DNA of 64,000 nucleotides from Flaviramulus sp. (GCA_030731745.1 JANQTJ010000040.1:1-64000); one strand, 5' to 3'. Positions 28,452 to 55,898 are shown, numbered from the stretch's first letter. The notes: generated from the letters alone by a model not told the origin. Translations and numbers: made by a program.

Positions 28452-29753
28452 TTGAAAAAATTATTAGATTATATAAATAATAAGGTTTTAGTAAAAATTG
28501 CTTCGTTACAAACCACTTCAGTTATCACTAGAATAATAGCAGGAATACTTACCTCTAAAGCAATTGCAGTTTTTATTGGTCCGGTTGGTTTAGCGCTCAT
28601 AGGCAATCTTAGAGATTTTGTTGCTGCGTTTCATACTTTGGCTACGGTTGGTTTTTATAAAGGTATTGTTAGGTATGTTTCCGAATTTAAAGACAATACT
28701 ATTGAATTAAGTAAAACATTATCAACTGTTTATTATACAGGGTTTTTCTCCACAGTTTTAGTTTCGATCTTTTGTTATTTTAATGCAGAGTGGATAAATG
28801 ATGCTATTTTCCCTGAGTACAATAATTATACATTTGTAATTCAAATATTTGCCATAGTACTTCCATTTTATGCTTTAAACATGTTTTCGTTCTCAATAAT
28901 GAATGGGTTTTCAAAGTACAAAATATTAATTGTTATTAATATAATTGGTCAAATTTTAAGTGTTTCAATAGCTTTATTATTAATTTATCAAGAGAAATTA
29001 AAAGGTGCTTTAATATCAGTTGTTATAGCGGAGTCTATTATATTTTTAATAACGTTAGTAGGTATTATTAATAGGCGTAGCTTAATTTCTTATGTGCGTG
29101 TTGAAAATGTAAGTTTAATTGTTCTCAAAAAAATGGGTTTTTATTCCTTAATGGCTCTTTTTACTGCGTTTTTATTACCTCTAGTTACTATTGCTATCAG
29201 GTCTTATATTATTGATAATATTAGTTATAAAGATGCTGGTTTTTGGGAAGCTATAACAAGAATATCCAAATATTATTTAATGTTAGTTAGTTCTTTTATT
29301 GCGCTTTATCTGCTGCCTCGTTTTTCAGAAATAGAGGATAGTAAAGAGTTTAAAAAAGAAGTATTTAGTTTTTACAAAACAATTATACCGTTTTTAGCGG
29401 TAGGTATGTTACTTATTTTCTTATTTAAAAAATATATAGTTTTAACTATATTTACTGAAGAGTTTGAACCAGTAGAAGATTTATTTTTATGGCAATTGAT
29501 AGGGGATTTTGTTAAAATACTATCCATTGTAATTGCTTATCAGTTTTTAGCTAAAAAAATGTTTTGGCATTATATTTTAACAGAAGCTTTTTTAATTATA
29601 ACTTTATATACCACAAGCGTTTATTTTATTGATTTATTTGATAGTGTAAAAGGCGCTGTTATTGCCCATTGTGTCAGTTATGTTATGTATTACGGTATTA
29701 TTTTACTCATTTTTGGTAGCTCACTTTTTGGTTTGGATGTAGAGAAAAAATAA
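28452..29753 (+). CDS. O-antigen translocase (Wzx-like flippase) 1
   Basis: 433-aa polytopic inner-membrane protein of the MOP/polysaccharide-flippase superfamily, with about a dozen hydrophobic helices. Near the N-terminus TSKAIAVFIGPVGLALIGNL and later NGFSKYKIL and GFWEAITRISKYYLM are typical of the WzxE-like O-antigen translocases that flip lipid-linked sugars. The start is TTG at 28452: the codon directly upstream is a TAA stop and no ATG is near. It begins the surface-polysaccharide cluster and is followed by a paralogue. Confidence 0.88.
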   Translation: MKKLLDYINNKVLVKIASLQTTSVITRIIAGILTSKAIAVFIGPVGLALIGNLRDFVAAFHTLATVGFYKGIVRYVSEFKDNTIELSKTLSTVYYTGFFSTVLVSIFCYFNAEWINDAIFPEYNNYTFVIQIFAIVLPFYALNMFSFSIMNGFSKYKILIVINIIGQILSVSIALLLIYQEKLKGALISVVIAESIIFLITLVGIINRRSLISYVRVENVSLIVLKKMGFYSLMALFTAFLLPLVTIAIRSYIIDNISYKDAGFWEAITRISKYYLMLVSSFIALYLLPRFSEIEDSKEFKKEVFSFYKTIIPFLAVGMLLIFLFKKYIVLTIFTEEFEPVEDLFLWQLIGDFVKILSIVIAYQFLAKKMFWHYILTEAFLIITLYTTSVYFIDLFDSVKGAVIAHCVSYVMYYGIILLIFGSSLFGLDVEKK

Positions 29754-29795
29754 AATACTAATCTTTTATATTAGTGATTAATGGTATTATTTTAA

Positions 29796-31082
29796 ATGAA
29801 ATTTAAGCTTAGTAATTCAACTCCACTTTTAAAAGCGTCCTATTTTAATGCAATTTTAGTTTTTGTTAAAGTTGCTACTGCCATTATAACTTCTAAAGTT
29901 ATAGCAATTTTTCTAGGTCCAAGTGGATTAGCGTTATTAGGAAACCTCAAAAATTTTATTCAAACAGCATCAAGTTTTACTGCAGAAGGTTATCAAAATG
30001 GAACAATTCGTTATGTTTCTGAGATGGATAATAACGAAAAGCAAAAGGATAAAATATCAGCAACTATTTTTCAATTAAGTTTAGGTTTTTCTTTAATTAT
30101 TGGTGTTTTCTTGTTTTTGTTTGCTTCTTTTTTTAGTCGGTTTGTTTTTCAAACAATAGATTATGATTACATAATAAAACTTATAGGTATTTGTTTGCCT
30201 TTCTTATCTATTAATTTAGTAATAATTTACATACTAAATGGTCTAGAGGATTATAAAAGAATGGTAATTGTAAGCTCTGTTTTAAGTATTGTTAATATGC
30301 TAACTTCAGTTATTTTAGTTATTAATTATGGGATTTCTGGAGGTTTAGTTGCAGTAATTTTAGGTCAAGTTTTAGTTTTTATTTTGAATTTATTTTTTCT
30401 TGGTTCGCATAGAAAAATTCTTAAGAATATTTTTAGATTTCATCTGTTTTCAATTGAAGTTTTAAGAAATATGAACAAGTATTTTTTAATGGCTATATAT
30501 TCTGCAGCTATAGTTTCAATTAATTTATTATTAATTAGAAACCTCATAATTGATCATTTAAATTTAAGAGAAGCAGGATATTGGGAGGCTATGCAAAGAA
30601 TATCAGGTTTTTATATAATGTTTTTTACTAGCTTAACCTCATTTTACTTATTGCCTAGATTGTCTAAAGTTGATAGTTATCAATTATTTAAGAAAGAGAT
30701 TAAGAGCTTTTATTTATTATCTATACCTCTATTAATTATTATTTTTTTTACAATATATTTTTTACGATTTATTTTAATAAAAGTTTTTTTAAATGATGAT
30801 TTTCTGCCAACATCAAGTTTGTTTTTTTGGCAACTTATTGCTGATTTTATAAGTGTACTAGCCATAGCATTAGTAAAACAGTTTCATGCTAAACTTATGA
30901 TAAAGGCATATGTTTTTTGTAATGGGCTTTTAAATATTTTATATTTTGTATTAAGTTATATATTTATAGAGAGGTATGGTTTAGTTGGTGTTGTAAAAGC
31001 TTATGCTTTAAGTTATTTTATTTATTTAGTTTTTGTATTCCTTTTTGTCTATAATTATTTCAAAAACAAGCAAAATGTTTAA
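29796..31082 (+). CDS. O-antigen translocase (Wzx-like flippase) 2
   Basis: 428-aa paralogue of the preceding flippase: the blocks TSKVIAIFLGPSGLALLGNLKNF, NGLEDYKRM and GYWEAMQRISGFYIM align with the first copy at the same positions. ATG start 42 bases after the first copy. Its last 8 bases overlap the phosphoethanolamine-transferase gene. Either the two handle different lipid-linked repeat units, or they act as a heterodimer; sequence cannot tell. Very AT-rich, like the rest of this cluster. Confidence 0.88.
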   Translation: MKFKLSNSTPLLKASYFNAILVFVKVATAIITSKVIAIFLGPSGLALLGNLKNFIQTASSFTAEGYQNGTIRYVSEMDNNEKQKDKISATIFQLSLGFSLIIGVFLFLFASFFSRFVFQTIDYDYIIKLIGICLPFLSINLVIIYILNGLEDYKRMVIVSSVLSIVNMLTSVILVINYGISGGLVAVILGQVLVFILNLFFLGSHRKILKNIFRFHLFSIEVLRNMNKYFLMAIYSAAIVSINLLLIRNLIIDHLNLREAGYWEAMQRISGFYIMFFTSLTSFYLLPRLSKVDSYQLFKKEIKSFYLLSIPLLIIIFFTIYFLRFILIKVFLNDDFLPTSSLFFWQLIADFISVLAIALVKQFHAKLMIKAYVFCNGLLNILYFVLSYIFIERYGLVGVVKAYALSYFIYLVFVFLFVYNYFKNKQNV

Positions 31083-32649
31083 ATTAAGAGCATTTTTTAA
31101 TTTACATAAATTTCCAGCATTTTTGCTGTTAATCTATCCTATTGTATTAGCTTTTCTTTTAGAATTTTTTTTACAAGACTTAAGTTTTTCCTCTCATTTA
31201 AATTTATTAGAAAATATATTATTTTTTGTAATTGTTACCTTATTAGTCAATCAACTATCTTTTTTTAAAAATGGAAAAAAAATAGCTAACATTATAATAG
31301 TTATATATTATGCCTCTTTGTGTATTGAAACAGGCTTATATTTATTATTTCAAACTAGATTAAACGCGGCATACATTCATGTAATTTTAAATACAAATTT
31401 TATTGAGGTTAAAGAGTTTAGTACCATTTATTTTAAGAATAATTTGGTTTTCTTGTTATTCTTTTTTGTTCCACTATTAAAATTTTTTCCAAAAAAAATT
31501 TACAAGAATATTAACCATAATAACAAAAATTTCTTCTTTTCATTTGCCTCAATTCTATTAGTTTTTATCATAATGAAATTTACTGCTTTACTATATTGGA
31601 ACTTTCCCTATGTTGTTTTAAAATCGGGTATTCAATATCAAAATCAATTAAAAGTATTTGATGATTTTGGTAAAAGAAATATAAATTTAAATGCAAACTT
31701 AGTAACAGACAATGATTTAATAGTTATAATTATTGGTGAATCGACAACAAGAAATCATATGGGTATTTATGGTTATAGAAGAAATACAACCCCAAAATTA
31801 GAAGAGTTATCTGATTCATTATTTATTTACAACAATGTTATTAGTTCTCATGTATTTACCACCGCTTCTTTATATGATGCTTTTACAATAACTAAAAGTA
31901 ATCAAACTACTTTCTTGATTGATTATATTAAAAAAGCTGGTTATAAAGTTTATTGGTTATCTAATCAAAGGCCTATCGGATTTCATGATAATTTGGTTTC
32001 AAGAATTGCCTCTGCGGCTAATGAAAGTATATTTTTAAGTTACAATGATTTTAGACATAAAACTTTTTATGATGAAGTTCTTTTTCCAATGATAGATGAA
32101 AAACTATTGATAAAAGAGAAAAAAGTTGTTTTTGTTCATTTAATAGGTACTCACTATGATTATAGTAAAAGATATCCTGAAAAGTTTAATGTTTTTAAAT
32201 CTAAAAAACAAGATAAAAAAAATAAAATAATAGACACTTATGATAATTCTATTTTATACAATGATTTAATAGTTTCTGAAATTATTAAAAAAGTTAAACT
32301 AAAAAATGAAAAAAGTGCTGTTTTGTATTTTTCTGATCATGGTGAAGAGGTTTATGATGTAGTTGATTATTTTGGTCATTTTGCAGATAAACCAACTTCA
32401 ACAATGTACGAAATTCCTTTTTTATTATATAAGGCAAGCTCTTTTGAAGAGCCAAATAATTTTATAATAGACGAGAATAGATCTTTTATGTTGGATGATT
32501 TACCAGAGAGTTTAATTCATTTAATGGGAATTGAAAGTGAATCTATTGATAATAGTAAAAGCATTTTTAGTTTAGATTTTAAAAATGAAATGCGATTAAT
32601 AGATAATGGATTAGATTTTGAATCATTTAAATTTAAAGAAAACAAATGA
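31075..32649 (+). CDS. Phosphoethanolamine transferase / sulfatase-fold membrane enzyme
   Basis: 524-aa inner-membrane enzyme of the EptA/CptA type. Several N-terminal transmembrane helices (to about residue 175) are followed by a periplasmic alkaline-phosphatase-superfamily domain. The nucleophile motif IIIGESTTRNHMGIYGY contains the Thr that accepts phosphoethanolamine, VFVHLIGTHYDY is the family HxxGxH-like segment, and YFSDHGEEVYD supplies metal ligands. The family decorates lipid A or LPS core, often raising polymyxin resistance; which site here is unknown. The ATG at 31075 was chosen, overlapping the flippase gene by 8 bases, over an upstream in-frame TTG. Confidence 0.85.
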   Translation: MFKLRAFFNLHKFPAFLLLIYPIVLAFLLEFFLQDLSFSSHLNLLENILFFVIVTLLVNQLSFFKNGKKIANIIIVIYYASLCIETGLYLLFQTRLNAAYIHVILNTNFIEVKEFSTIYFKNNLVFLLFFFVPLLKFFPKKIYKNINHNNKNFFFSFASILLVFIIMKFTALLYWNFPYVVLKSGIQYQNQLKVFDDFGKRNINLNANLVTDNDLIVIIIGESTTRNHMGIYGYRRNTTPKLEELSDSLFIYNNVISSHVFTTASLYDAFTITKSNQTTFLIDYIKKAGYKVYWLSNQRPIGFHDNLVSRIASAANESIFLSYNDFRHKTFYDEVLFPMIDEKLLIKEKKVVFVHLIGTHYDYSKRYPEKFNVFKSKKQDKKNKIIDTYDNSILYNDLIVSEIIKKVKLKNEKSAVLYFSDHGEEVYDVVDYFGHFADKPTSTMYEIPFLLYKASSFEEPNNFIIDENRSFMLDDLPESLIHLMGIESESIDNSKSIFSLDFKNEMRLIDNGLDFESFKFKENK

Positions 32650-36334: not shown

Positions 36335-36342
36335 TATCTTTG
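36335..36342 (+). promoter_or_regulatory. -7 promoter box of the TPR protein gene
   Basis: TATCTTTG, perfect TAnnTTTG, 28 bases before the ATG at 36370. An in-frame TTG at 36340 overlaps it and so is not the start. Confidence 0.5.
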
Positions 36343-36369
36343 AATCATCAAATAAAAAACGAATCGTTA

Positions 36370-39300
36370 ATGAGTAATAAAAATTGTTTTTCACTTTTGG
36401 TGGCTTTAATTTTTACATTTCAAATTACAGCCCAACAATCTGCGACTTACACTAGTAATTTAGTAGATTATCAAAAAGCATTATCACTTTATAATAATCA
36501 ACAATATCTTGCAGCTCAGTCCTTATTTGGTAGTATTAAAAAAACTTCTAAAGAAAATATTTTACAATCAGATTGTACTTATTTTATTGCTAATTGTGCT
36601 GTGAGATTAAACCAACAAAATGCTGATCAATTAGTTGAAGATTTTGTAAAAGAATATCCAACAAGCACAAAACGAAATTCTGCTTTTGTAGATGTGGGCG
36701 ATTATTATTTCGAAAACTCAAAGTATGCTTATGCCAGAAAATGGTATGATAAAGTTGATGAGAATGCACTTTCTAAAAGCGAGAAAGATAAATTTTATTT
36801 TAACAATGGTTATTCAGCATTTTCCAGCAAGCAATTTAATGATGCCAAAAAGTATTTAAGTAAAGTTGAAAACTCTCAAGAATTTGGTTCTCAAGCCAAA
36901 TATTTCATGGGCTTTATGGCTTACGAAGGTGATGATTACAATGCAGCTAATGAATATTTTGAACAAGTAAGTGATCAAGAGCGATACAAAGAGAAACTAT
37001 CGTACTACCAAGCAGATTTAAATTTTAAGTTAGGGAATTTTGAAAAAGCTATAGAATTAGCTAAAGCGAGATTAGACACAAGTGATCAAGAAGAAATATC
37101 TGAACTTTCAAAAATTATAGGTGAAAGTTATTTTAATCTTGAAAAATATGCAGAGGCTATTCCTTATCTAAAAGCTTATCAGGGTAAAAAGGAAAAAAGA
37201 GATAAAACTGGCAAATGGAATAATACAGATTATTATCAATTAGGATATGCTTATTATAAGCAGAAAGACTATGAAAAAGCTATTTCTGAGTTTAACAAAA
37301 TAGTGGGTGGAAATAATTCGATAGCTCAAAATGCCTATTATCATTTAGGTGAAAGCTATATTAATTTAGATAAAAAACAAGAAGCTTTAAATGCTTTTAG
37401 AAATGCTTCGGAAATGGATTTTGATTTAAAAATTCAAGAAGATTCATGGTTAAATTACGCGAAAATCAGTTACGAGATAGGAAATCCTTACCAATCTGCA
37501 CCACAGGTTTTAGCTGCTTATTTAGATAAATATCCAAATATAACTTATAAAGAAGAAATTGAAACTCTTTTAATTGATTCTTACATTACTTCTAAAAATT
37601 ATAAAGAAGCACTTAAATTATTAGATAATAAAAAGAGTTTTGAAAACAAAGTTGCTTACCAAAAAGTAGCTTTTTATAGAGGTTTAGAGCTCTATAATGA
37701 AAATAATTATCAAGAAGCCAGATTACTTTTTGAAGCGTCATTAAAAGAACCCAGAGATTCAAATTATACGGCTCGGGCTACTTTTTGGAAAGCTGAAACT
37801 GATTATAATTTAACAAATTATGACGATGCTTTAATTGGTTTAAAACAGTTTCAACAAGAGTCTTCAGTTATTTCAACTCCCGAAATAGAAAATTTAGATT
37901 ATAACTTAGGATACACGTATTTTAAGTTGAAAAATTACGAGCAAGCCATAAATTATTTTAATCAATTTACTTCAAAAAAACGAGAAGATAAGGTTAGATT
38001 GAATGATGCCTATTTACGTTTAGGAGATGGGTATTTTGTTTCAAGTAATTATAAAAATGCTGTAGATGCTTACGATAATGCTTTAAAATTAAACATATTA
38101 GATTCAGATTATCCAGCTTTTCAAAAAGCAATAAGTATTGGTTATAGTGGGCAATCTTCAAAAAAAATAAAAGCTTTAGAACAGTTTATTTCAGACTATC
38201 CTAATTCTAAATTACGAGATGATGCGATGTACGAGCTTGGTAATTCATTTGTTAAAACTAACGAGATTAACAAGGCAGTGGCTATTTATAATCGTTTGAA
38301 TGATGAATATAGAACGAGTCCATTTGTTTCTAAAGCCTTATTAAGACAAGGTTTAGTGTATTATAATAATAATGAAAATGAAAGTGCGTTAAATAAATTT
38401 AAAAAAGTAGCAAGTGACTTTCCTGGATCGACAGAAGCAGTGCAAGCAGTATCAACAGCCAAATTAATTTACATTGATATGGGAAGGGTTGATGATTATG
38501 CTAAATGGGTAAAAACCCTTGATTACGTTGAGGTTACCGATTCTGAATTAGATAATGCTACATATCAAGCTGCTGAAAAACAATATTTAGATAATAATAC
38601 AGATAAAGCAATTAAACAATTTAATGGTTATTTAAATGAGTTTCCAAATGGGTTACATGTTTTACAAGCTCATTTTTATGTTGCTCAATTATATTATAAG
38701 AAAGATTTATTAGAGAATGCAGTGCCTCATTACAAATTTATTGTTGGGGCATCACAAAGTGAATATTCAGAAGAAGCACTTACACGATTATCTCAGTTTT
38801 ACTTAGAAAACAAAAACTGGAATCAGGCTATAGTGTTATTATTAAGATTAGAGACCGAAGCTAATTTTCCTCAAAATGTGGTGTTTGCGCAATCTAATTT
38901 GATGAAAGCTTATTATCAATTAGAAAATTATGATAAAGCGTTTAATTATTCAGATAAGGTTTTGGCGAGCTCAAAAATTGATAATAAAATTAAAAGTGAT
39001 GCGCATGTGATTATTGCACGATCTGCCATAAAAACAGGTGATGAAGCTAAGGCGAAAACAGCTTATAATCAGGTTGAGAAATTTTCAACAGGAGAAACAG
39101 CTGCTGAATCCTTATACTATAATGCTTATTTTAAAAATAAAGAGGGTAAGTTTGAGATTTCTAATCAAACGGTACAAAAATTGGCTAAAGATTATTCTGG
39201 TTACAAGTATTATAGCGCTAAGGGACTAGTACTTATGGCTAAAAATTATGATGCTCTAAAGGATGCATTTCAAGCTACTTATATTTTAGAAAGTGTGATT

Positions 39301-39408
39301 CAAAATTTCTCAGAATTTGATGATTTAGTGCTAGAAGCTACTAATGAATTACGCAGAATTAAAAATGAAGAGGCTAAAACTAATTCATCAATTCAATCAG
39401 AAGATTAA
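36370..39408 (+). CDS. Large secreted tetratricopeptide-repeat protein
   Basis: 1012-aa protein with a signal peptide (MSNKNCFSLLVALIF..., ending TAQ) and then almost nothing but TPR helices. Typical repeat fragments such as YNAANEYFEQV, YEKAISEFNKI, YEQAINYFNQF and YKNAVDAYDNAL recur from about residue 30 to 990. It therefore forms a long superhelical scaffold in the periplasm or at the outer membrane. It is followed after 31 bases by an outer-membrane barrel gene on the same strand, a pairing seen in other flavobacteria, so the two may form one envelope complex. Precise role unknown. ATG start fixed by the upstream -7 box. Confidence 0.88.
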   Translation: MSNKNCFSLLVALIFTFQITAQQSATYTSNLVDYQKALSLYNNQQYLAAQSLFGSIKKTSKENILQSDCTYFIANCAVRLNQQNADQLVEDFVKEYPTSTKRNSAFVDVGDYYFENSKYAYARKWYDKVDENALSKSEKDKFYFNNGYSAFSSKQFNDAKKYLSKVENSQEFGSQAKYFMGFMAYEGDDYNAANEYFEQVSDQERYKEKLSYYQADLNFKLGNFEKAIELAKARLDTSDQEEISELSKIIGESYFNLEKYAEAIPYLKAYQGKKEKRDKTGKWNNTDYYQLGYAYYKQKDYEKAISEFNKIVGGNNSIAQNAYYHLGESYINLDKKQEALNAFRNASEMDFDLKIQEDSWLNYAKISYEIGNPYQSAPQVLAAYLDKYPNITYKEEIETLLIDSYITSKNYKEALKLLDNKKSFENKVAYQKVAFYRGLELYNENNYQEARLLFEASLKEPRDSNYTARATFWKAETDYNLTNYDDALIGLKQFQQESSVISTPEIENLDYNLGYTYFKLKNYEQAINYFNQFTSKKREDKVRLNDAYLRLGDGYFVSSNYKNAVDAYDNALKLNILDSDYPAFQKAISIGYSGQSSKKIKALEQFISDYPNSKLRDDAMYELGNSFVKTNEINKAVAIYNRLNDEYRTSPFVSKALLRQGLVYYNNNENESALNKFKKVASDFPGSTEAVQAVSTAKLIYIDMGRVDDYAKWVKTLDYVEVTDSELDNATYQAAEKQYLDNNTDKAIKQFNGYLNEFPNGLHVLQAHFYVAQLYYKKDLLENAVPHYKFIVGASQSEYSEEALTRLSQFYLENKNWNQAIVLLLRLETEANFPQNVVFAQSNLMKAYYQLENYDKAFNYSDKVLASSKIDNKIKSDAHVIIARSAIKTGDEAKAKTAYNQVEKFSTGETAAESLYYNAYFKNKEGKFEISNQTVQKLAKDYSGYKYYSAKGLVLMAKNYDALKDAFQATYILESVIQNFSEFDDLVLEATNELRRIKNEEAKTNSSIQSED

Positions 39409-39439
39409 AAGTCATCAATTATAAAATAAATCAAAAGAT

Positions 39440-41176
39440 ATGCGAAAGGACATAAAACATATAATACTAGCGATTATCACCTTAAATGTAGCGCTTTCTT
39501 TCTCTCAAGAAAGAAAAAGTGATACTATTAATACAGGGATTATTGATGTAGTAAAACCTTATACGCCAACAATATCAGACGCCTTTAAGGTAAAGGAAAT
39601 TCCATCTTTAAATGATGAAACAACTCAAACTAAAAAATCAATTAAGTATAATATTTTCTCCTTTCCTGTGGCATCTACTTTTACACCTGCAAAAGGAAAG
39701 GCTGCATTGGTAGAAAAGCGAGAACCGGTAAAATTATTTGATAATTATGCTACTTTAGGTGTTGGAACATATACCACAATATTAGGGGAAGTGTATTTAA
39801 ACCATGCAATTAGTAGAAGTGAAAGTGTAGGTGGCTATGTGAGTCATCATTCATCTGCGGGAGGTATTGATGGCATGCAATTTGACGATAGTTTTTCTAA
39901 TTCTAAAATTAATATAAATTATTCATCTCGGTTACGTGATTTGTCATGGAATATAGAAGGTGGTTTTCAACAACAAATGTATAATTGGTATGGGGTTCCA
40001 GAATCTCAAGTATCGGTAGCACAAACTAATAATATAGATGTGAACCATTCATTTTTTGATGCAAATTTTGGAGGTGATATTTCTTTTAAAGACACCTATA
40101 TAAACTCAGGAAGCTTCTTTTTTAGGCGTTTTGGAGATAATCAAGGCTCTGGCGAAAATAGATTTATAGTAAAAGCAAAAGTTGATGTTCCTATTAATGA
40201 TATAGAAATTTCAACAGATTTCAAATTTGATTATTTAGGTGGTACTTTTGATAGAAGTTATTTCTTAAATCAAGAATTAAATTACAGTAATTTTCAAATA
40301 GGCGTATCTCCCACATACGAGTTAAAACAAGACGATTTAACTGTTAACTTAGGGGTATCTGCTTATTTTTTAAATGATAAACAATCAGGCGATAGTAAAT
40401 TTTATATCTATCCAAACATCACAGCTACTTACCGCTTGGTTAATGATGTATTAATTGCTTACGGAGGTATTCAAGGTGATTTAATACAAAATTCATATTA
40501 CGATTTTGCAAACGAAAATCCATTTGTTTCACCAACATTATTTATTTCACCAACAGATCAATTATATAATGCTTTTGTAGGTTTAAAAGGAAAATTGTCT
40601 AGTAACATGAGTTATAACATAAGCGGAAGTTATTTGGCTGATAGAAATAAAGCACTTTTTAAAACAAATATTATTAGAAATTTAGCACCTCAAAACAATT
40701 ATGATTATGGAAATTCCTTCGGAATTGTTTTTGATGATATTGAAACATTTGGTGTAGCGGGAGAAATTAATGTTGATGTAAACAGGAATTTTAAATTAGG
40801 ATTAAAAGCTGAGTATTTTACTTATAATACAGATGATGAGGCTGAAGCTTGGAATTTGCCCGATGTAAAGGGGTCTTTGTTTCTAGATTATCAAATAAAC
40901 GAACAATGGTTTGCTGGTGCTAACTTGTTTTACATTGGAGAACGTAAAGATCAATTAGAGTTAGAAGGAACACTTTTACCAATAGATTTGATAACCAACG
41001 TTACTTTAGATAGTTTTTTTGATGCCAATGCGCATCTAGGATATCATATAAACAATCAACTTTCAATATTTGCAAAAGCAAATAACATAGCTAATAATGC
41101 CTATCAAAAATGGCAAAATTTTCCAGTACAAAGTATTCAGTTTTTGGCAGGAGCTACTTATAAGTTTGATTTTTGA
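39440..41176 (+). CDS. Outer-membrane beta-barrel protein (TonB-receptor-like, plugless)
   Basis: 578-aa protein with a signal peptide (ending LSFSQ), a short Asp/Lys-rich periplasmic segment, and a barrel of alternating-polarity strands. It ends in GATYKFDF, the aromatic C-terminus recognised by the BAM complex. The C-terminal AKANNIANNAYQKW motif is that of TonB-dependent receptor barrels, but no plug domain or TonB box is visible and the length is short for a full receptor. It lies 31 bases after the TPR gene and is ended by a clean hairpin terminator, so the two form one operon. Confidence 0.8.
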   Translation: MRKDIKHIILAIITLNVALSFSQERKSDTINTGIIDVVKPYTPTISDAFKVKEIPSLNDETTQTKKSIKYNIFSFPVASTFTPAKGKAALVEKREPVKLFDNYATLGVGTYTTILGEVYLNHAISRSESVGGYVSHHSSAGGIDGMQFDDSFSNSKININYSSRLRDLSWNIEGGFQQQMYNWYGVPESQVSVAQTNNIDVNHSFFDANFGGDISFKDTYINSGSFFFRRFGDNQGSGENRFIVKAKVDVPINDIEISTDFKFDYLGGTFDRSYFLNQELNYSNFQIGVSPTYELKQDDLTVNLGVSAYFLNDKQSGDSKFYIYPNITATYRLVNDVLIAYGGIQGDLIQNSYYDFANENPFVSPTLFISPTDQLYNAFVGLKGKLSSNMSYNISGSYLADRNKALFKTNIIRNLAPQNNYDYGNSFGIVFDDIETFGVAGEINVDVNRNFKLGLKAEYFTYNTDDEAEAWNLPDVKGSLFLDYQINEQWFAGANLFYIGERKDQLELEGTLLPIDLITNVTLDSFFDANAHLGYHINNQLSIFAKANNIANNAYQKWQNFPVQSIQFLAGATYKFDF

Positions 41177-41225
41177 TTAATCAGTTATTATTAACTTGTT
41201 TCAGAAACTTATCAATTAAATCATC

Positions 41226-41255
41226 AAAAGCGTTCTATTAAGAACGCTTTTTTTA
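41226..41255 (+). terminator. Rho-independent terminator
   Basis: AAAAGCGTTCT and AGAACGCTTTT pair perfectly around an ATTA loop and run into a T tract. It ends the TPR/barrel operon. Confidence 0.88.
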
Positions 41256-41282
41256 TTTTTACAAGAATGAATTAAACAACTC

Positions 41283-42896
41283 ATGAAAAATATCTTAACC
41301 TTTTTTATATTATTAAGTTTTTTGTCTTGTAAAACAAAAGAACGTGTTGATTCTATAGTAATTAATGGAAATGTTTATACTGTTAATAAAGAATTTGAAA
41401 ATGCTGAAGCTTTCGCTATCAAAGATGGCAAGTTTTTAGAAGTTGGAAGTTCTAAAGCTCTTCAAGATAAATATGTGGCCGATACTATTATTGATGCTAA
41501 AGGAAAGACTATTTTACCAGGATTTATAGATGCGCACTGCCATTTTTACAGAATGGGTTTAGGTGAACAAAAGGTGAAATTAGAAGGTACAAAAAGCTTT
41601 GATGAAGTTATCCAAAAGTTAGTTGATTTTCAAAAAGAAAAAAACAGCAGCTTTATCACAGGCAGAGGTTGGGACCAAAATGATTGGGAAGTTAAAGAGT
41701 TCCCAACAAAAGATAAATTAGATTCCATTTTCCCTAATACACCCGTTGCTATTGGCAGAGTAGATGGTCATGCACTTTTAGTAAATCAAGCAGCTATTAA
41801 TTTAACAACTCTTGATGAGAATACACATGTTAATGGCGGTGAAATTTTAAAAGTGAATGGTAAACTTACAGGTGTACTTATAGATGCAGCTATGGGAATT
41901 GTTAGAAATATCATTCCAGAACCAAGTATCCAAGAATCCGTTGCTGCTTTAAAAGATGCTCAAAAAATCTGTTTTGATTTAGGTTTAACAACTGTTGACG
42001 ATGCAGGGTTAAATAGGGAAACTATTGAAATGATTGATAGTTTACAAAAAACAGGTGATTTAACTATGCGTGTTTATGCCATGGTTTCGGCTTCAAAAGA
42101 AAATATCGATTATTATTTAAATAAAGGCATCATTAAAACTGAAAAACTAAATGTACGTTCCTTCAAGTTTTATGGTGATGGCGCTTTAGGGTCTCGAGGT
42201 GCTATGTTACGAGAACCATACTCTGATCAACCTGGGCATTTAGGACTTTTGGTTAATAGTATTGAGACTTTAAATGAAACTGCAGAACGTATTTCAAATT
42301 CTGAATATCAAATGAATACTCACGCTATTGGCGATTCAGCAAATCATGCCGTTTTAAACACATATAAGAGAGTATTGAAAGGTAAACCCAATAGACGATG
42401 GCGTTTAGAACATGCTCAAATTATATCTCCAGAAGATTTTGAACATTTTTCCGACATTATTCCATCCATTCAACCAACACATGCTACCAGCGATATGTAT
42501 TGGGCAGAAAATAGAGTAGGAGCCGAACGTATAAAAGGGGGGTATGCTTTTAAAGATTTATTAAAGGCGTATGGCAAAGTTGCTTTAGGTACCGATTTTC
42601 CAGTAGAAAATGTGAGTCCGTTTTTAACCTTTTATGCCGCAGTAGCGAGACAAGATTTAGACCAATATCCAGAAGGTGGATTTCAAATGGAAAATGCCTT
42701 AAGTAGAGAAGAAACCCTAAAAGGCATGACGATTTGGGCAGCATATTCTAATTTTGAAGAAGATGAAAAAGGCAGTATAGAAGCTGGTAAATTTGCAGAT
42801 TTCATTATTTTGGATAAAGATATTATGGCAGTTGAAGCCTCTGAAATACCCAAAATAAAAGTAATTAATACGTTTGTTGATGGAAAGATAAAATGA
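41283..42896 (+). CDS. Amidohydrolase lipoprotein (YtcJ-like)
   Basis: 537-aa metal-dependent hydrolase, TIM-barrel amidohydrolase superfamily. It carries a lipoprotein signal (lipobox LSC, Cys16) and the composite beta domain with ADTIIDAKGKTILPGFIDAHCHF, where the HxH supplies metal ligands. HALLVNQAA, TTVDDAG, FYGDGALGSRGA and the C-terminal Asp in ALGTDFPVENVSP follow. This pattern is that of YtcJ-like enzymes, whose substrates are mostly unknown amides or imides. The next gene overlaps by ATGA, so the pair is cotranscribed. ATG start. Confidence 0.88.
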   Translation: MKNILTFFILLSFLSCKTKERVDSIVINGNVYTVNKEFENAEAFAIKDGKFLEVGSSKALQDKYVADTIIDAKGKTILPGFIDAHCHFYRMGLGEQKVKLEGTKSFDEVIQKLVDFQKEKNSSFITGRGWDQNDWEVKEFPTKDKLDSIFPNTPVAIGRVDGHALLVNQAAINLTTLDENTHVNGGEILKVNGKLTGVLIDAAMGIVRNIIPEPSIQESVAALKDAQKICFDLGLTTVDDAGLNRETIEMIDSLQKTGDLTMRVYAMVSASKENIDYYLNKGIIKTEKLNVRSFKFYGDGALGSRGAMLREPYSDQPGHLGLLVNSIETLNETAERISNSEYQMNTHAIGDSANHAVLNTYKRVLKGKPNRRWRLEHAQIISPEDFEHFSDIIPSIQPTHATSDMYWAENRVGAERIKGGYAFKDLLKAYGKVALGTDFPVENVSPFLTFYAAVARQDLDQYPEGGFQMENALSREETLKGMTIWAAYSNFEEDEKGSIEAGKFADFIILDKDIMAVEASEIPKIKVINTFVDGKIK

Positions 42897-51878: not shown

Positions 51879-54800
51879 GTGAGGATAATTCAACTCTTTA
51901 GTACATTTATTTATGGATGTTTAATATTAGTTTTTCTTTTAAACAATAAAATATATGCTCAAAGTTTTGAACGAATTGAATTAGCTTCTGGTTTAAATGT
52001 TTTGGTTGATAATAATGGTGCTGCAGTCGCAGATTATGATGGTGACCTTGATCTAGACTTATTTGTAGTTGCCAAAGCTATAGACCAGGATGGGGTAGAG
52101 AAATCTTTTAGTAAGTTATTTCGTAATAATAACGACGGCTCATTTACAGATGTTACAGAAGTTTCTAATTTGATTAATTTATATTCCTCGGCTGAAGCTG
52201 GAGATCTTTTTCCAGGATTGGATGGCTTTAAATATGGTGCTTCATGGGGAGATTATGATAATGATGGATATCCAGATATTTTTTTTACACATTCCTTTAA
52301 GGTGCAGCTTTTTCATAACCAAGGAGATGGTACTTTTAGAGAAGTAACTTCTGAGGCTGGGATTCAATCTATTAACAACTGCAGACATACTGGTGCTACC
52401 TGGGTAGATTATAATAATGACAGCTTTTTAGATATTTTCATCGGAGATTGGGGAAGTTGTGATGGTAATGTTCTTTATGAAAACAAAGGCAATGGCACTT
52501 TTGTAAACGTTAGTTTAAGTTCTAACGTTGGAACTGGATCAAGTAATTTTAGTTACACAATGATTCCCTTTGATTTTAATAAAGATGGTTGGTTAGATTT
52601 TTATATTTCAAATGATAAAAATCAACCAAATAGTTTACTAATTAATCAAAACGGTTTAAGCTTTATTGATCAAGCAGAAGCCTATGGATTAGATAGTAGA
52701 TTGGACGATATGGGAATAGCTGTTGGAGATTTTAATAATGATGGTAGTTTCGATTTTTATGTAACAGGTATTAATATTAATGCTATGTTTGAAAACAATG
52801 GTAATAATATTTTTTCAGAAGTTTCTGAATCTAATAATACATCATTTACAGGTACAGGATTTGGTTGGGGCTGCAAGTTTTCAGATTTTGATTTAGATGG
52901 TGATGAAGATTTGTTTGTTGTTAATGGTTTTAAAAATACTATTCCTGTTAAAAATGTATATTTTGAAAATCTTTATGAAGAAAATCAAAACACATTTCTT
53001 GATATATCAGAAACTACTAACCTCAATCCATTTTCGGTAAGTACAGATGCTCAAGATTTTGATTTTGATAATGATGGTGACATTGATTTGTTCGTTTCAA
53101 ATTCAGTGGGCAATTCTTTTATGTATGAAAATAAAATAATCAACGGAAATACTAATTTAAGTTGGTTTAAAATCATTCTTCAAGGAACAATTTCAAATAG
53201 AGATGCCATTGGATCAAAACTTTCTGTAACAACTTCAAATAGAACCATAGTGCGTTATCATCATGGTATAGGTATGTTGTCTCAGAGCTTAAAGCCTATT
53301 CATTTTGGATTAAAAGATGATAATGTAATTGATCAATTAGAAATTTTATGGCCTTCGGGATTAACTGAAACTTATAATAATCTGAATTCAAATACAACTT
53401 TAAGAGTTATTGAGGGACAAGGTTATGAGGTTTTAAATATCGAACCAAGTATTAAGATTTATGGATGTACAGATCCAAATTCTTGCACGTATAACCCATT
53501 AGCTACTTCAGATGATGGTAGTTGTATCTTAGGATCAGATCAAGAGATAATTGGCGAAACAGAATCAGGTTTTAATAACATAGAAATATATAATTACCAA
53601 ATTAAAGAAAACTCAGAAATTAGTTGGTTAGTTGAAGGTGGCGAGCTTTTAAGTGGCCAAGGTTCTAATTCAATTACTGTTAAGTGGGGTTTAGAATCAA
53701 TTGGTAAAATAATTGTAACTGAGAGTTTAGATGGTTGCTCAAATGTAACAACTGTATTGGAAATTAATTTAAGTCTAGATATTATTCCAGATAATATTTC
53801 AATTGCTAGAATATGGAATGAGGCATTATTAGAAGCTATTAGAAGAGATTTTGCAAGACCAACAGTACATGCCAGAAACTTATTTCATACCTCTGTAGCG
53901 CTTTATGATAGTTGGGCAATTTATAGTCAAAATGCCAAACCTTATTTAATTGGTAATATAGTAAATGAATTTCAGAGTAAGCTTAATATTTTTGTACCTA
54001 ATGAATCAAATGATATTTCAATATCTAAAACCATGAGTTATGCAGCATATAGATTGTTAACTCACCGATTTGTTAATTCACCAGGAGGGATTGAAAGCCT
54101 TAAGAGGTTTGATTATATTATGAATCAATTGGGTTATGATATAAATAATACTACATTAGATTATGAATCTGGTGATGCCGCAGCATTAGGTAATTATATA
54201 GGTTCAACACTTATTAATTATGGTTTAATTGATGGTTCTAATGAAATTAATGATTACAGTAATAGTTATTACCAATCGGTTAATCCGCCACTTAGTTTAA
54301 ACTTACCTAACCAAACAACAGGAATTATAAATCCAAATAGATGGCAACCATTAAGTTTTGATACATTTATTGATCAGAGTAATAATATTATTCCGGGTTC
54401 AACTCCCAGTTTTTTAGGACCTGAATGGGGTAAAGTACTTCCATTTGCTCTGAACAACAAAAGTTTATTAGAAAGAGAGGGTAATATTTTTCATGTATAT
54501 CACTTACCAGAAATGCCTCCACAATTAGATGTTATTACACAAAATGTTTCAAGTGATCAATATAAATGGAATTTTACACTCGTAGCTAAATGGAGTTCAC
54601 ATTTAGATGCAACTGATGGTGTTATGTGGGATATATCACCAAATTCTATTGGTAATATAGATTTTGATTTATTTCCAAATTCATATTCAGTTTATTCTGA
54701 TTTTTATGATTACGATAATGGTGGTGATATTAGTAATGGGCATAATGAGAATCCTTCAACAGGAGCATCTTATGAAGTCCAATTAGTACCTAGAGGTGAT

Positions 54801-55898
54801 TATACAAGGGTTTTAGCTGAGTTTTGGGCTGATGGACCAGATTCTGAAACACCACCTGGACATTGGTTTACAATACTTAATTATGTCAATGATCACCCTA
54901 AATTTGAAAGAAAATTTAATGGTATAGGAGATGTTTTACCTCCATTAGAATGGGATGTAAAGGCTTATTTTATTTTAGCTGGTGCTATGCATGATTCCGC
55001 TATAACAGCTTGGGGTATTAAGGGCTGGTTTGATTATATTAGGCCAATTTCGGCCATACGCTATATGAGTGAATTAGGCCAAAGTACAGATCCAAATTTG
55101 ATAAATTATAATCCAGGTGGAATTCCTTTAGTATCTGGTTTTATTGAAGTTATTCAACAAAATGATCCGCTTATTGGCGATAATAACGAAAACCTTGGTA
55201 AAATGAAAATACATGCATGGTTAGGGCATGATGCAATAAATGATGCCAATACAGATGTGGCTGGTGTGGGTTGGATTTTAGCAGAAAATTGGTGGCCATA
55301 TCAGCGGCCTTCATTTGTAACACCTCCATTTGCAGGTTTTGTTTCAGGACATTCTACATTTTCAAGAGCAGCAGCTGAAGTTATGACACTAATAACAGGA
55401 GATGCTTTTTTTCCCGGTGGTATGGGAGAATTTGTAGCCAAGAAAGATGAATTTTTGGTTTTTGAGAAAGGACCATCAGTTGATGTGAAATTACAATGGG
55501 CTACATATAGAGATGCTTCTGATCAAACAAGTCTCTCTCGTATCTGGGGAGGTATACATCCTCCAGTTGATGATATTTCTGGTAGGATTATTGGTAAAGA
55601 AGTTGGAATAAATGCTTTTAATTTCGCATTACCTTATTTTGATTCTGAATTGAATTTAGAATCAACTCAAAGTATATTGGTATATCCTAATCCGGTTTTG
55701 TTAAATGAAGTTTATATATCAAATACTACAAAATTTGATGCTATTAGTTTGTTTGATCTACATGGTAGGCAGATTAATTTTGATATAATATTTGATGACA
55801 AAGATAAAACGACTCAAATTTTATTACCAAAAAAAACTATTTCAGGAGTTTATATTTTAAAAGTAAATACTATTTCCAAAATGTTAATAGTTAAATAA
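51879..55898 (+). CDS. Secreted FG-GAP/ASPIC-UnbV + vanadium haloperoxidase fusion with T9SS signal
   Basis: 1339-aa exoprotein. Order: signal peptide (1-28), an FG-GAP/VCBS propeller with seven calcium-type loops such as DYDGDLDLDLF, DYDNDGYPDIF and DFDNDGDIDLF (to about 430), and the ASPIC/UnbV domain (GSKLSVT...YHHGIG...LEILWPSG, about 440-520). A GCTDPNSC...DDGSC linker (from 528) and a PKD-like segment follow, then a vanadium-haloperoxidase/PAP2 domain (about 640-1250). All seven vanadate-site residues are present with the spacing of the Curvularia enzyme: Lys1048, Arg1055, Ser1156, Gly1157, His1158, Arg1221, His1227. Phe1151 matches Phe397 of chloroperoxidase. A type A T9SS sorting domain ends the protein (YPNP...GVYILKV, from about 1268). 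Start is GTG. It should oxidise halides outside the cell. Confidence 0.9.
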   Translation: MRIIQLFSTFIYGCLILVFLLNNKIYAQSFERIELASGLNVLVDNNGAAVADYDGDLDLDLFVVAKAIDQDGVEKSFSKLFRNNNDGSFTDVTEVSNLINLYSSAEAGDLFPGLDGFKYGASWGDYDNDGYPDIFFTHSFKVQLFHNQGDGTFREVTSEAGIQSINNCRHTGATWVDYNNDSFLDIFIGDWGSCDGNVLYENKGNGTFVNVSLSSNVGTGSSNFSYTMIPFDFNKDGWLDFYISNDKNQPNSLLINQNGLSFIDQAEAYGLDSRLDDMGIAVGDFNNDGSFDFYVTGININAMFENNGNNIFSEVSESNNTSFTGTGFGWGCKFSDFDLDGDEDLFVVNGFKNTIPVKNVYFENLYEENQNTFLDISETTNLNPFSVSTDAQDFDFDNDGDIDLFVSNSVGNSFMYENKIINGNTNLSWFKIILQGTISNRDAIGSKLSVTTSNRTIVRYHHGIGMLSQSLKPIHFGLKDDNVIDQLEILWPSGLTETYNNLNSNTTLRVIEGQGYEVLNIEPSIKIYGCTDPNSCTYNPLATSDDGSCILGSDQEIIGETESGFNNIEIYNYQIKENSEISWLVEGGELLSGQGSNSITVKWGLESIGKIIVTESLDGCSNVTTVLEINLSLDIIPDNISIARIWNEALLEAIRRDFARPTVHARNLFHTSVALYDSWAIYSQNAKPYLIGNIVNEFQSKLNIFVPNESNDISISKTMSYAAYRLLTHRFVNSPGGIESLKRFDYIMNQLGYDINNTTLDYESGDAAALGNYIGSTLINYGLIDGSNEINDYSNSYYQSVNPPLSLNLPNQTTGIINPNRWQPLSFDTFIDQSNNIIPGSTPSFLGPEWGKVLPFALNNKSLLEREGNIFHVYHLPEMPPQLDVITQNVSSDQYKWNFTLVAKWSSHLDATDGVMWDISPNSIGNIDFDLFPNSYSVYSDFYDYDNGGDISNGHNENPSTGASYEVQLVPRGDYTRVLAEFWADGPDSETPPGHWFTILNYVNDHPKFERKFNGIGDVLPPLEWDVKAYFILAGAMHDSAITAWGIKGWFDYIRPISAIRYMSELGQSTDPNLINYNPGGIPLVSGFIEVIQQNDPLIGDNNENLGKMKIHAWLGHDAINDANTDVAGVGWILAENWWPYQRPSFVTPPFAGFVSGHSTFSRAAAEVMTLITGDAFFPGGMGEFVAKKDEFLVFEKGPSVDVKLQWATYRDASDQTSLSRIWGGIHPPVDDISGRIIGKEVGINAFNFALPYFDSELNLESTQSILVYPNPVLLNEVYISNTTKFDAISLFDLHGRQINFDIIFDDKDKTTQILLPKKTISGVYILKVNTISKMLIVK

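Follow-up and report, generated by a model that had tools for sequence, protein, structure and literature searches.

A predicted exported fusion of a CRTAC1-type propeller with a vanadium haloperoxidase in Flaviramulus sp., and the linkage of the two modules in related genomes

We describe a gene in a 64,000-nucleotide stretch of DNA from Flaviramulus sp. (GCA_030731745.1, JANQTJ010000040.1:1-64000; the whole stretch is called the window) whose 1339-aa product we consider rather likely, from sequence and structure models, to be a T9SS-exported vanadium haloperoxidase (VHPO), held at the cell surface or released, with an N-terminal CRTAC1-type propeller acting as a positioning module. By analogy with known VHPOs, the enzyme probably makes reactive halogen from halides and hydrogen peroxide. 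By sequence comparison, the tie between propeller and haloperoxidase is found in three arrangements: fused in one chain, as separate neighbours in SusD/GH20 loci, and as tandem propeller genes upstream of iodoperoxidase orthologues. Haloperoxidases of marine bacteria have mostly been known as enzymes of one domain whose roles are unclear, and to our knowledge no ligand has been established for CRTAC1-type propellers in bacteria. The common fusion, together with the CRTAC1-iodoperoxidase gene link in glycan-uptake loci, offers a handle on the purpose of these enzymes, be it iodine/bromine cycling, algal degradation or defence, and the linkage poses a testable ligand question for the propellers.

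The open reading frame (51879-55898, + strand) is intact and begins with GTG; the 17 codons separating the upstream stop from this start contain no in-frame ATG. Its product is ordered as signal peptide, FG-GAP propeller, ASPIC domain, GCTDPNSC linker, PKD-like domain, vanadium haloperoxidase and T9SS type-A tail, with the following features.

51879..51962, +, signal peptide, residues 1-28 (...LLNNKIYAQ), recognized by eye from a short basic start, a hydrophobic core and an A-Q end
51963..53186, +, seven-repeat FG-GAP beta-propeller, residues 29-436 (Pfam FG-GAP_3, model, conserved loop Asp)
53187..53438, +, ASPIC/UnbV domain, residues 437-520 (Pfam UnbV_ASPIC at 443-508, E 3.6e-14)
53463..53525, +, cysteine linker GCTDPNSC...DDGSC, residues 529-549 (from the sequence)
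53589..53750, +, PKD/Ig-like domain, residues about 571-624 (PKD_6 E 0.003, below cut-off; beta-sandwich in the model)
53784..55646, +, predicted vanadium-haloperoxidase domain, residues 636-1256 (Pfam DUF6851 and VCPO_2nd, PDB matches, model)
55011..55043, +, W1045, K1048 and R1055, invariant and aligned with W, K and R of 9l8x and 4cit
55329..55352, +, F1151...S1156-G1157-H1158, invariant and aligned with TPPFPEYTSGH of 4cit
55539..55559, +, R1221 and H1227, invariant and aligned with SRVWGGVH of 9l8x
55680..55895, +, T9SS type-A sorting domain, residues 1268-1339 (NCBIfam TIGR04183, E 4.3e-8)

A sequence-only reading had proposed that this frame joins a propeller with an ASPIC block, a vanadium haloperoxidase and a T9SS signal. 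HMM scans, residue positions and fold matches for both domains confirm that observation, and the domain assignment itself proves right by HMM, PDB-sequence and structure-model comparisons. The domain search it had proposed matched FG-GAP_3, UnbV_ASPIC and Por_Secre_tail, with PAP2 weak and below cut-off; Pfam also matched DUF6851 and VCPO_2nd, and PKD_6 weakly. To its list of domains we add the PKD/Ig-like domain (~571-624) between linker and enzyme. With regard to export, the Por_Secre_tail match (1268-1336, E 4.3e-8) lies above the curated cut-off of TIGR04183 and, together with the signal peptide seen by eye, places the protein among T9SS type-A cargo, of which the genome assembly encodes 33 tails. 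SprA_N was detected in five of five relatives and was not found in the source assembly, which is 75% complete. From sequence, we predict that the 1339-aa protein is exported to the cell surface.

The N-terminal half contains seven FG-GAP_3 stretches (Pfam, E 1.1e-32), whose D-x-[DN]-x-D loops begin near residues 52, 125, 177, 232, 284, 336 and 395. With seven FG-GAP repeats followed by an ASPIC/UnbV domain, this part of the protein belongs to the CRTAC1 / ASPIC-UnbV propeller family, and the model of residues 29-632 (pLDDT 92.8) finds mouse CRTAC1 (9etn) as its best fold match (Z 41.2 over 452 residues; next match Z 31.1). The loop Asp residues are conserved across 34 fusions, a pattern compatible with Ca2+ sites and with the calcium binding that the sequence-only reading had proposed. 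Downstream of the propeller, linker cysteines 530, 536 and 549 are invariant in a 34-row alignment, and the GC-T/M-D linker motif occurs in 16 of 18 fusions compared (missing from L057 and L074). The PKD-like region forms a separate Ig-like sandwich in the model and resembles the ColG PKD domain (2y72, Z 9.3).

The case for a haloperoxidase rests on pocket residues, fold and sequence neighbours. The signature K-x6-RP...SGH...SR-x5-H-x3-D is present once in the protein and in none of 20,000 shuffles, and the pocket residues named by the sequence-only reading lie exactly where it had placed them, with the spacing it gave. Nine pocket residues (W1045, K1048, R1055, F1151, S1156, G1157, H1158, R1221 and H1227) show no variation among 31/31 family homologues or in two additional alignments of 35 and 18 rows, with the query counted. 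We take the first seven to be the counterparts of W350, K353, R360, F397, S402, G403 and H404 of Curvularia chloroperoxidase (CPO), and R1221 and H1227 presumably correspond to R490 and the vanadate-ligating H496. By position, invariance and alignment to 4cit and 9l8x, the protein thus carries the complete K/R/S-G-H/R/H vanadate-pocket set of vanadium haloperoxidases. A PDB sequence search with the C-terminal half matched VHPOs only (9l8x, 8cxl, 9ptr, 4cit and 3w35). The enzyme-domain model (residues 524-1262; pLDDT 86.7, pTM 0.89) has the two-bundle helical VHPO fold on comparison, with NapH1 (Z 28.8), XhnO11 (28.4), NapH3 (28.1) and Zobellia iodoperoxidase (27.6) as closest matches. The structural comparison with 1VNC that the sequence-only reading had suggested gives a global fold match to Curvularia CPO at Z 22.0, and algal bromoperoxidases (Z about 9-11) and unrelated Ig-like folds (about 9-10) follow at lower scores. 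That reading had also drawn a parallel to chloroperoxidase from the Phe at the position of CPO Phe397; this proved uninformative, and we rejected F1151 as a sign of chloride oxidation, because the Zobellia iodoperoxidase carries the same Phe. The halide range can therefore not be inferred from sequence.

The pocket residues double as the general PAP2 phosphatase/haloperoxidase signature and so do not by themselves exclude a phosphatase. In addition, NapH3 shares the VHPO fold and catalyses an alpha-hydroxyketone rearrangement, a non-halogenating reaction, so the fold is no guarantee of halide oxidation. The C-terminal domain might accordingly be a secreted acid phosphatase of PAP2 type, or else a different enzyme with a vanadate pocket, such as a NapH3-like isomerase; tethered by the propeller, it would scavenge phosphate or convert a small molecule, and the extra region relative to the 460-aa bacterial VHPOs could form a different substrate site. 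We regard this as unlikely: every top match by sequence or fold is a VHPO, and halide oxidisers are among them; the spacing from R to SGH, about 101 residues, exceeds the 12-54 residues of the phosphatase signature; W and F, which belong to the halide site of CPO, do not vary; and the propeller linkage parallels that of a true iodoperoxidase family. The SGH motif is kept, as in the Zobellia and Curvularia enzymes, whereas XhnO11 has SGS. Taken together, the modelled two-bundle fold and the closest relatives in sequence favour a vanadium haloperoxidase.

If the protein is such an enzyme, H1227 would ligate vanadate, which K1048, R1055, S1156, G1157 and R1221 would hold, and hydrogen peroxide, for example from algae, would react with halide to give oxidised halogen (HOX); H1158 would serve as the acid-base residue. 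Both this role of the histidine and HOX formation are established VHPO chemistry. Ca2+ in the D-x-[DN]-x-D loops would stabilise the propeller, which in turn would keep the enzyme on a glycan (surface or algal) or on a partner surface, so that short-lived HOX would arise beside its target. More likely than small-molecule biosynthesis, the benefit would lie in handling hydrogen peroxide and halide or in treating glycan material, algal or other, oxidatively.

The propeller is also associated with haloperoxidases outside the fusion. In two small-genome relatives (L055 and L058), CRTAC1 genes are separate neighbours of a 640-aa enzyme homologue, in loci that contain SusD, GH20 and GH2, as well as SusC and an FGE-sulfatase-type protein in L058 and GH109 in L055. 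The source genome has its second haloperoxidase on C46. This orthologue of the Zobellia iodoperoxidase (E 5e-206) lies at C46:44000-62000 (L059) in a one-strand row of SusD, CRTAC1, a small protein, two further CRTAC1 genes, the iodoperoxidase, GH13 (SusG-like) and GH97; judged by its gene content, this row is a locus of the alpha-glucan type that includes a haloperoxidase. Upstream of Zobellia iodoperoxidase orthologues there are one to three CRTAC1 genes in tandem: in 16 of 20 other genomes, chosen by their iodoperoxidase match and not by CRTAC1, they are directly upstream on the same strand, in two more (L165 and L177) a CRTAC1 gene lies farther upstream, and in the stretches around the orthologues of L175 and L176 none was found. 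These genomes are related and so cannot count as 20 separate events. Each genome has few ASPIC genes (2-17), and 52 of 121 such genes are fused to a haloperoxidase or lie within 16 kb of one in 18 genomes chosen for either enzyme; in the source genome, four of the five are fused to a haloperoxidase or share one row with it. The same propeller type is linked, through fusion or adjacency, with each of two VHPO groups that are distant relatives, which supports a functional pairing. Two neighbouring observations concern other gene arrangements. In Winogradskyella marincola (L090:3535-6996), two separate CRTAC1 genes lie immediately upstream of the fusion gene. A third VHPO-type gene of the source genome, on C10 (L060:7005-8474, 490 aa), is closest to 9ptr, NapH3 and XhnO11 but has SGH, and no propeller neighbour was seen beside it.

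The fusion is modular. Between L062 and L080, identity is 81% in the enzyme and 33% in the propeller, and between the window's protein and L080 it is 73% and 32%, respectively; L080 and L064 are 60% identical in a second propeller type. L056 and L128 are without a propeller and are nested among fusions on the tree. These sequence comparisons indicate that the enzyme was retained while the propeller was replaced, in one subclade, or lost. A mobile-element origin was considered and dropped, as a plasmid collection gave only CRTAC1 matches 28-31% identical over the propeller and no fusion. The propeller could instead be a structural or chaperone-like partner that protects the enzyme or aids its export or oligomerisation and binds no external target, which would agree with CRTAC1-type genes adjoining ZgVIPO-type enzymes unfused and with the enzyme being kept while the propeller is swapped or lost. 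An obligate partner, however, would be expected to co-vary with the enzyme and not to be replaceable, and the fifth ASPIC gene of the source genome (C15; L061:5507-8800) adjoins GH17/GH30 glucanase-like genes (by eye) and an MFS sugar transporter without any haloperoxidase. We give the structural explanation about one chance in four; that the propeller can be exchanged speaks more for a targeting role than for a fixed structural one.

What the propeller might target is suggested by gene context. Delivery of the enzyme to a surface or glycan has indirect support from the co-occurrence of propeller and enzyme in SusD/glycoside-hydrolase loci and from the replaceable propeller, and their neighbouring genes in sugar-polymer uptake clusters provide hints of a shared job. 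Other observations count against the positioning reading. For the fusion gene in the window, no SusCD or glycoside-hydrolase neighbours were found, and most fusions lack them too: such neighbours lie within 8 kb of 20 of 80 fusions, and SusD lies within 12 kb of 6 of 22 (about 1.8 expected). Propeller-less relatives manage without the module and are seldom near SusCD (3 of 41); the SusCD link of the fusion itself was set aside as a main argument, the enrichment being weak. A candidate PUL in the window at 36340-42896 was rejected, since the row encodes a TPR protein, a further protein and an amidohydrolase, not SusC/SusD. Elsewhere, a row at 28452-32649 of the window consists of two genes resembling polysaccharide flippases and one for a Sulfatase-domain protein (Pfam); it lies within the window's lowest-GC part (28-36 kb, 25% GC). 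Chemical defence, in which HOX would act against competitors or interfere with signalling independently of glycans, would suit the mostly marine taxa and the generally biocidal products of VHPOs; with the paralogous and split systems linked to glycan loci, we judge it improbable but not negligible. The wider proposal that CRTAC1-type propellers and vanadium haloperoxidases are a recurrent functional pair in Bacteroidota, one that directs oxidised halogen at glycans locally while these are being acquired, as a halogen-based oxidative PUL step, is speculative and in our estimate doubtful.

The propeller-haloperoxidase architecture is not unique to this genome and is common in Flavobacteriaceae, beside a propeller-less form of 640-770 aa. 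With weak matches to distant paralogues counted too, 120 of 299 same-family genomes have an enzyme-domain match at E <= 1e-10; strong matches fall mainly in frames of roughly 1250-1420 aa and 640-770 aa. In a phylum-wide sample, 22 of 395 genomes have a match at E <= 1e-60, and the frames outside the window's family span 733-1302 aa, judged by lengths alone. Carriers of the fusion are mostly marine taxa and include Winogradskyella, Wenyingzhuangia, Bizionia, Psychroserpens, Maribacter, Polaribacter, Aestuariibaculum, Marinoscillum and a Prolixibacteraceae MAG. On the tree, the window's enzyme domain lies closest to one from Flavobacterium luteum. Explaining the fusion label takes 8 changes across this tree, of which 6 or more fall on well-supported branches, and the fusion was therefore gained and/or lost several times, although the count is approximate because some propeller-less rows are contig-end fragments (e.g. 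L116). Full-length fusion genes are paired in tandem at L069:4933-12993 and L120:3021-11103, and at L078:5900-8565 an enzyme homologue lies in two overlapping frames (398 and 509 aa), probably through a frameshift. Our literature search did not find vanadium haloperoxidase and FG-GAP together, nor any pair among VHPO, SusD and VCBS; the main Zobellia enzyme paper lay outside its scope. The linkage pattern may have been described before, and we make no claim to a first description.

Among known systems, the Zobellia galactanivorans vanadium iodoperoxidase (4cit/4usz) shares the VHPO fold (Z 27.6) and the same pocket residues, including the Phe at CPO-397, and in most genomes examined its orthologues immediately follow CRTAC1-type propeller genes. 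It differs in being a separate gene product of about 450 aa that is distant in sequence (profile E about 6e-8); its orthologue in the source genome has a lipoprotein-like N-terminus. NapH1, NapH3 and XhnO11 (3w35, 8cxl and 9l8x) are the best fold matches (Z 28-29) and conserve the K...R and R...H pairs, but they are shorter and single-domain, XhnO11 has SGS where the 1339-aa protein has SGH, and NapH3 is an alpha-hydroxyketone rearrangement catalyst according to the title of 8cxl. Similarly, the Curvularia inaequalis chloroperoxidase (1vnc) agrees in fold (Z 22), pocket residue set and spacings, yet is fungal, 16-17% identical and without propeller or T9SS tail. Mouse CRTAC1 (9etn) matches the entire propeller-plus-ASPIC fold (Z 41.2), whereas it is an animal matrix protein without an enzyme domain. 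Finally, the propeller-less Bacteroidota homologues of 640-770 aa are mostly 55-68% identical in the enzyme domain (two outliers 44%) and many end in a T9SS-kind C-terminal tail, HMM-confirmed in the one tested, but they are without propeller, linker and PKD domain.
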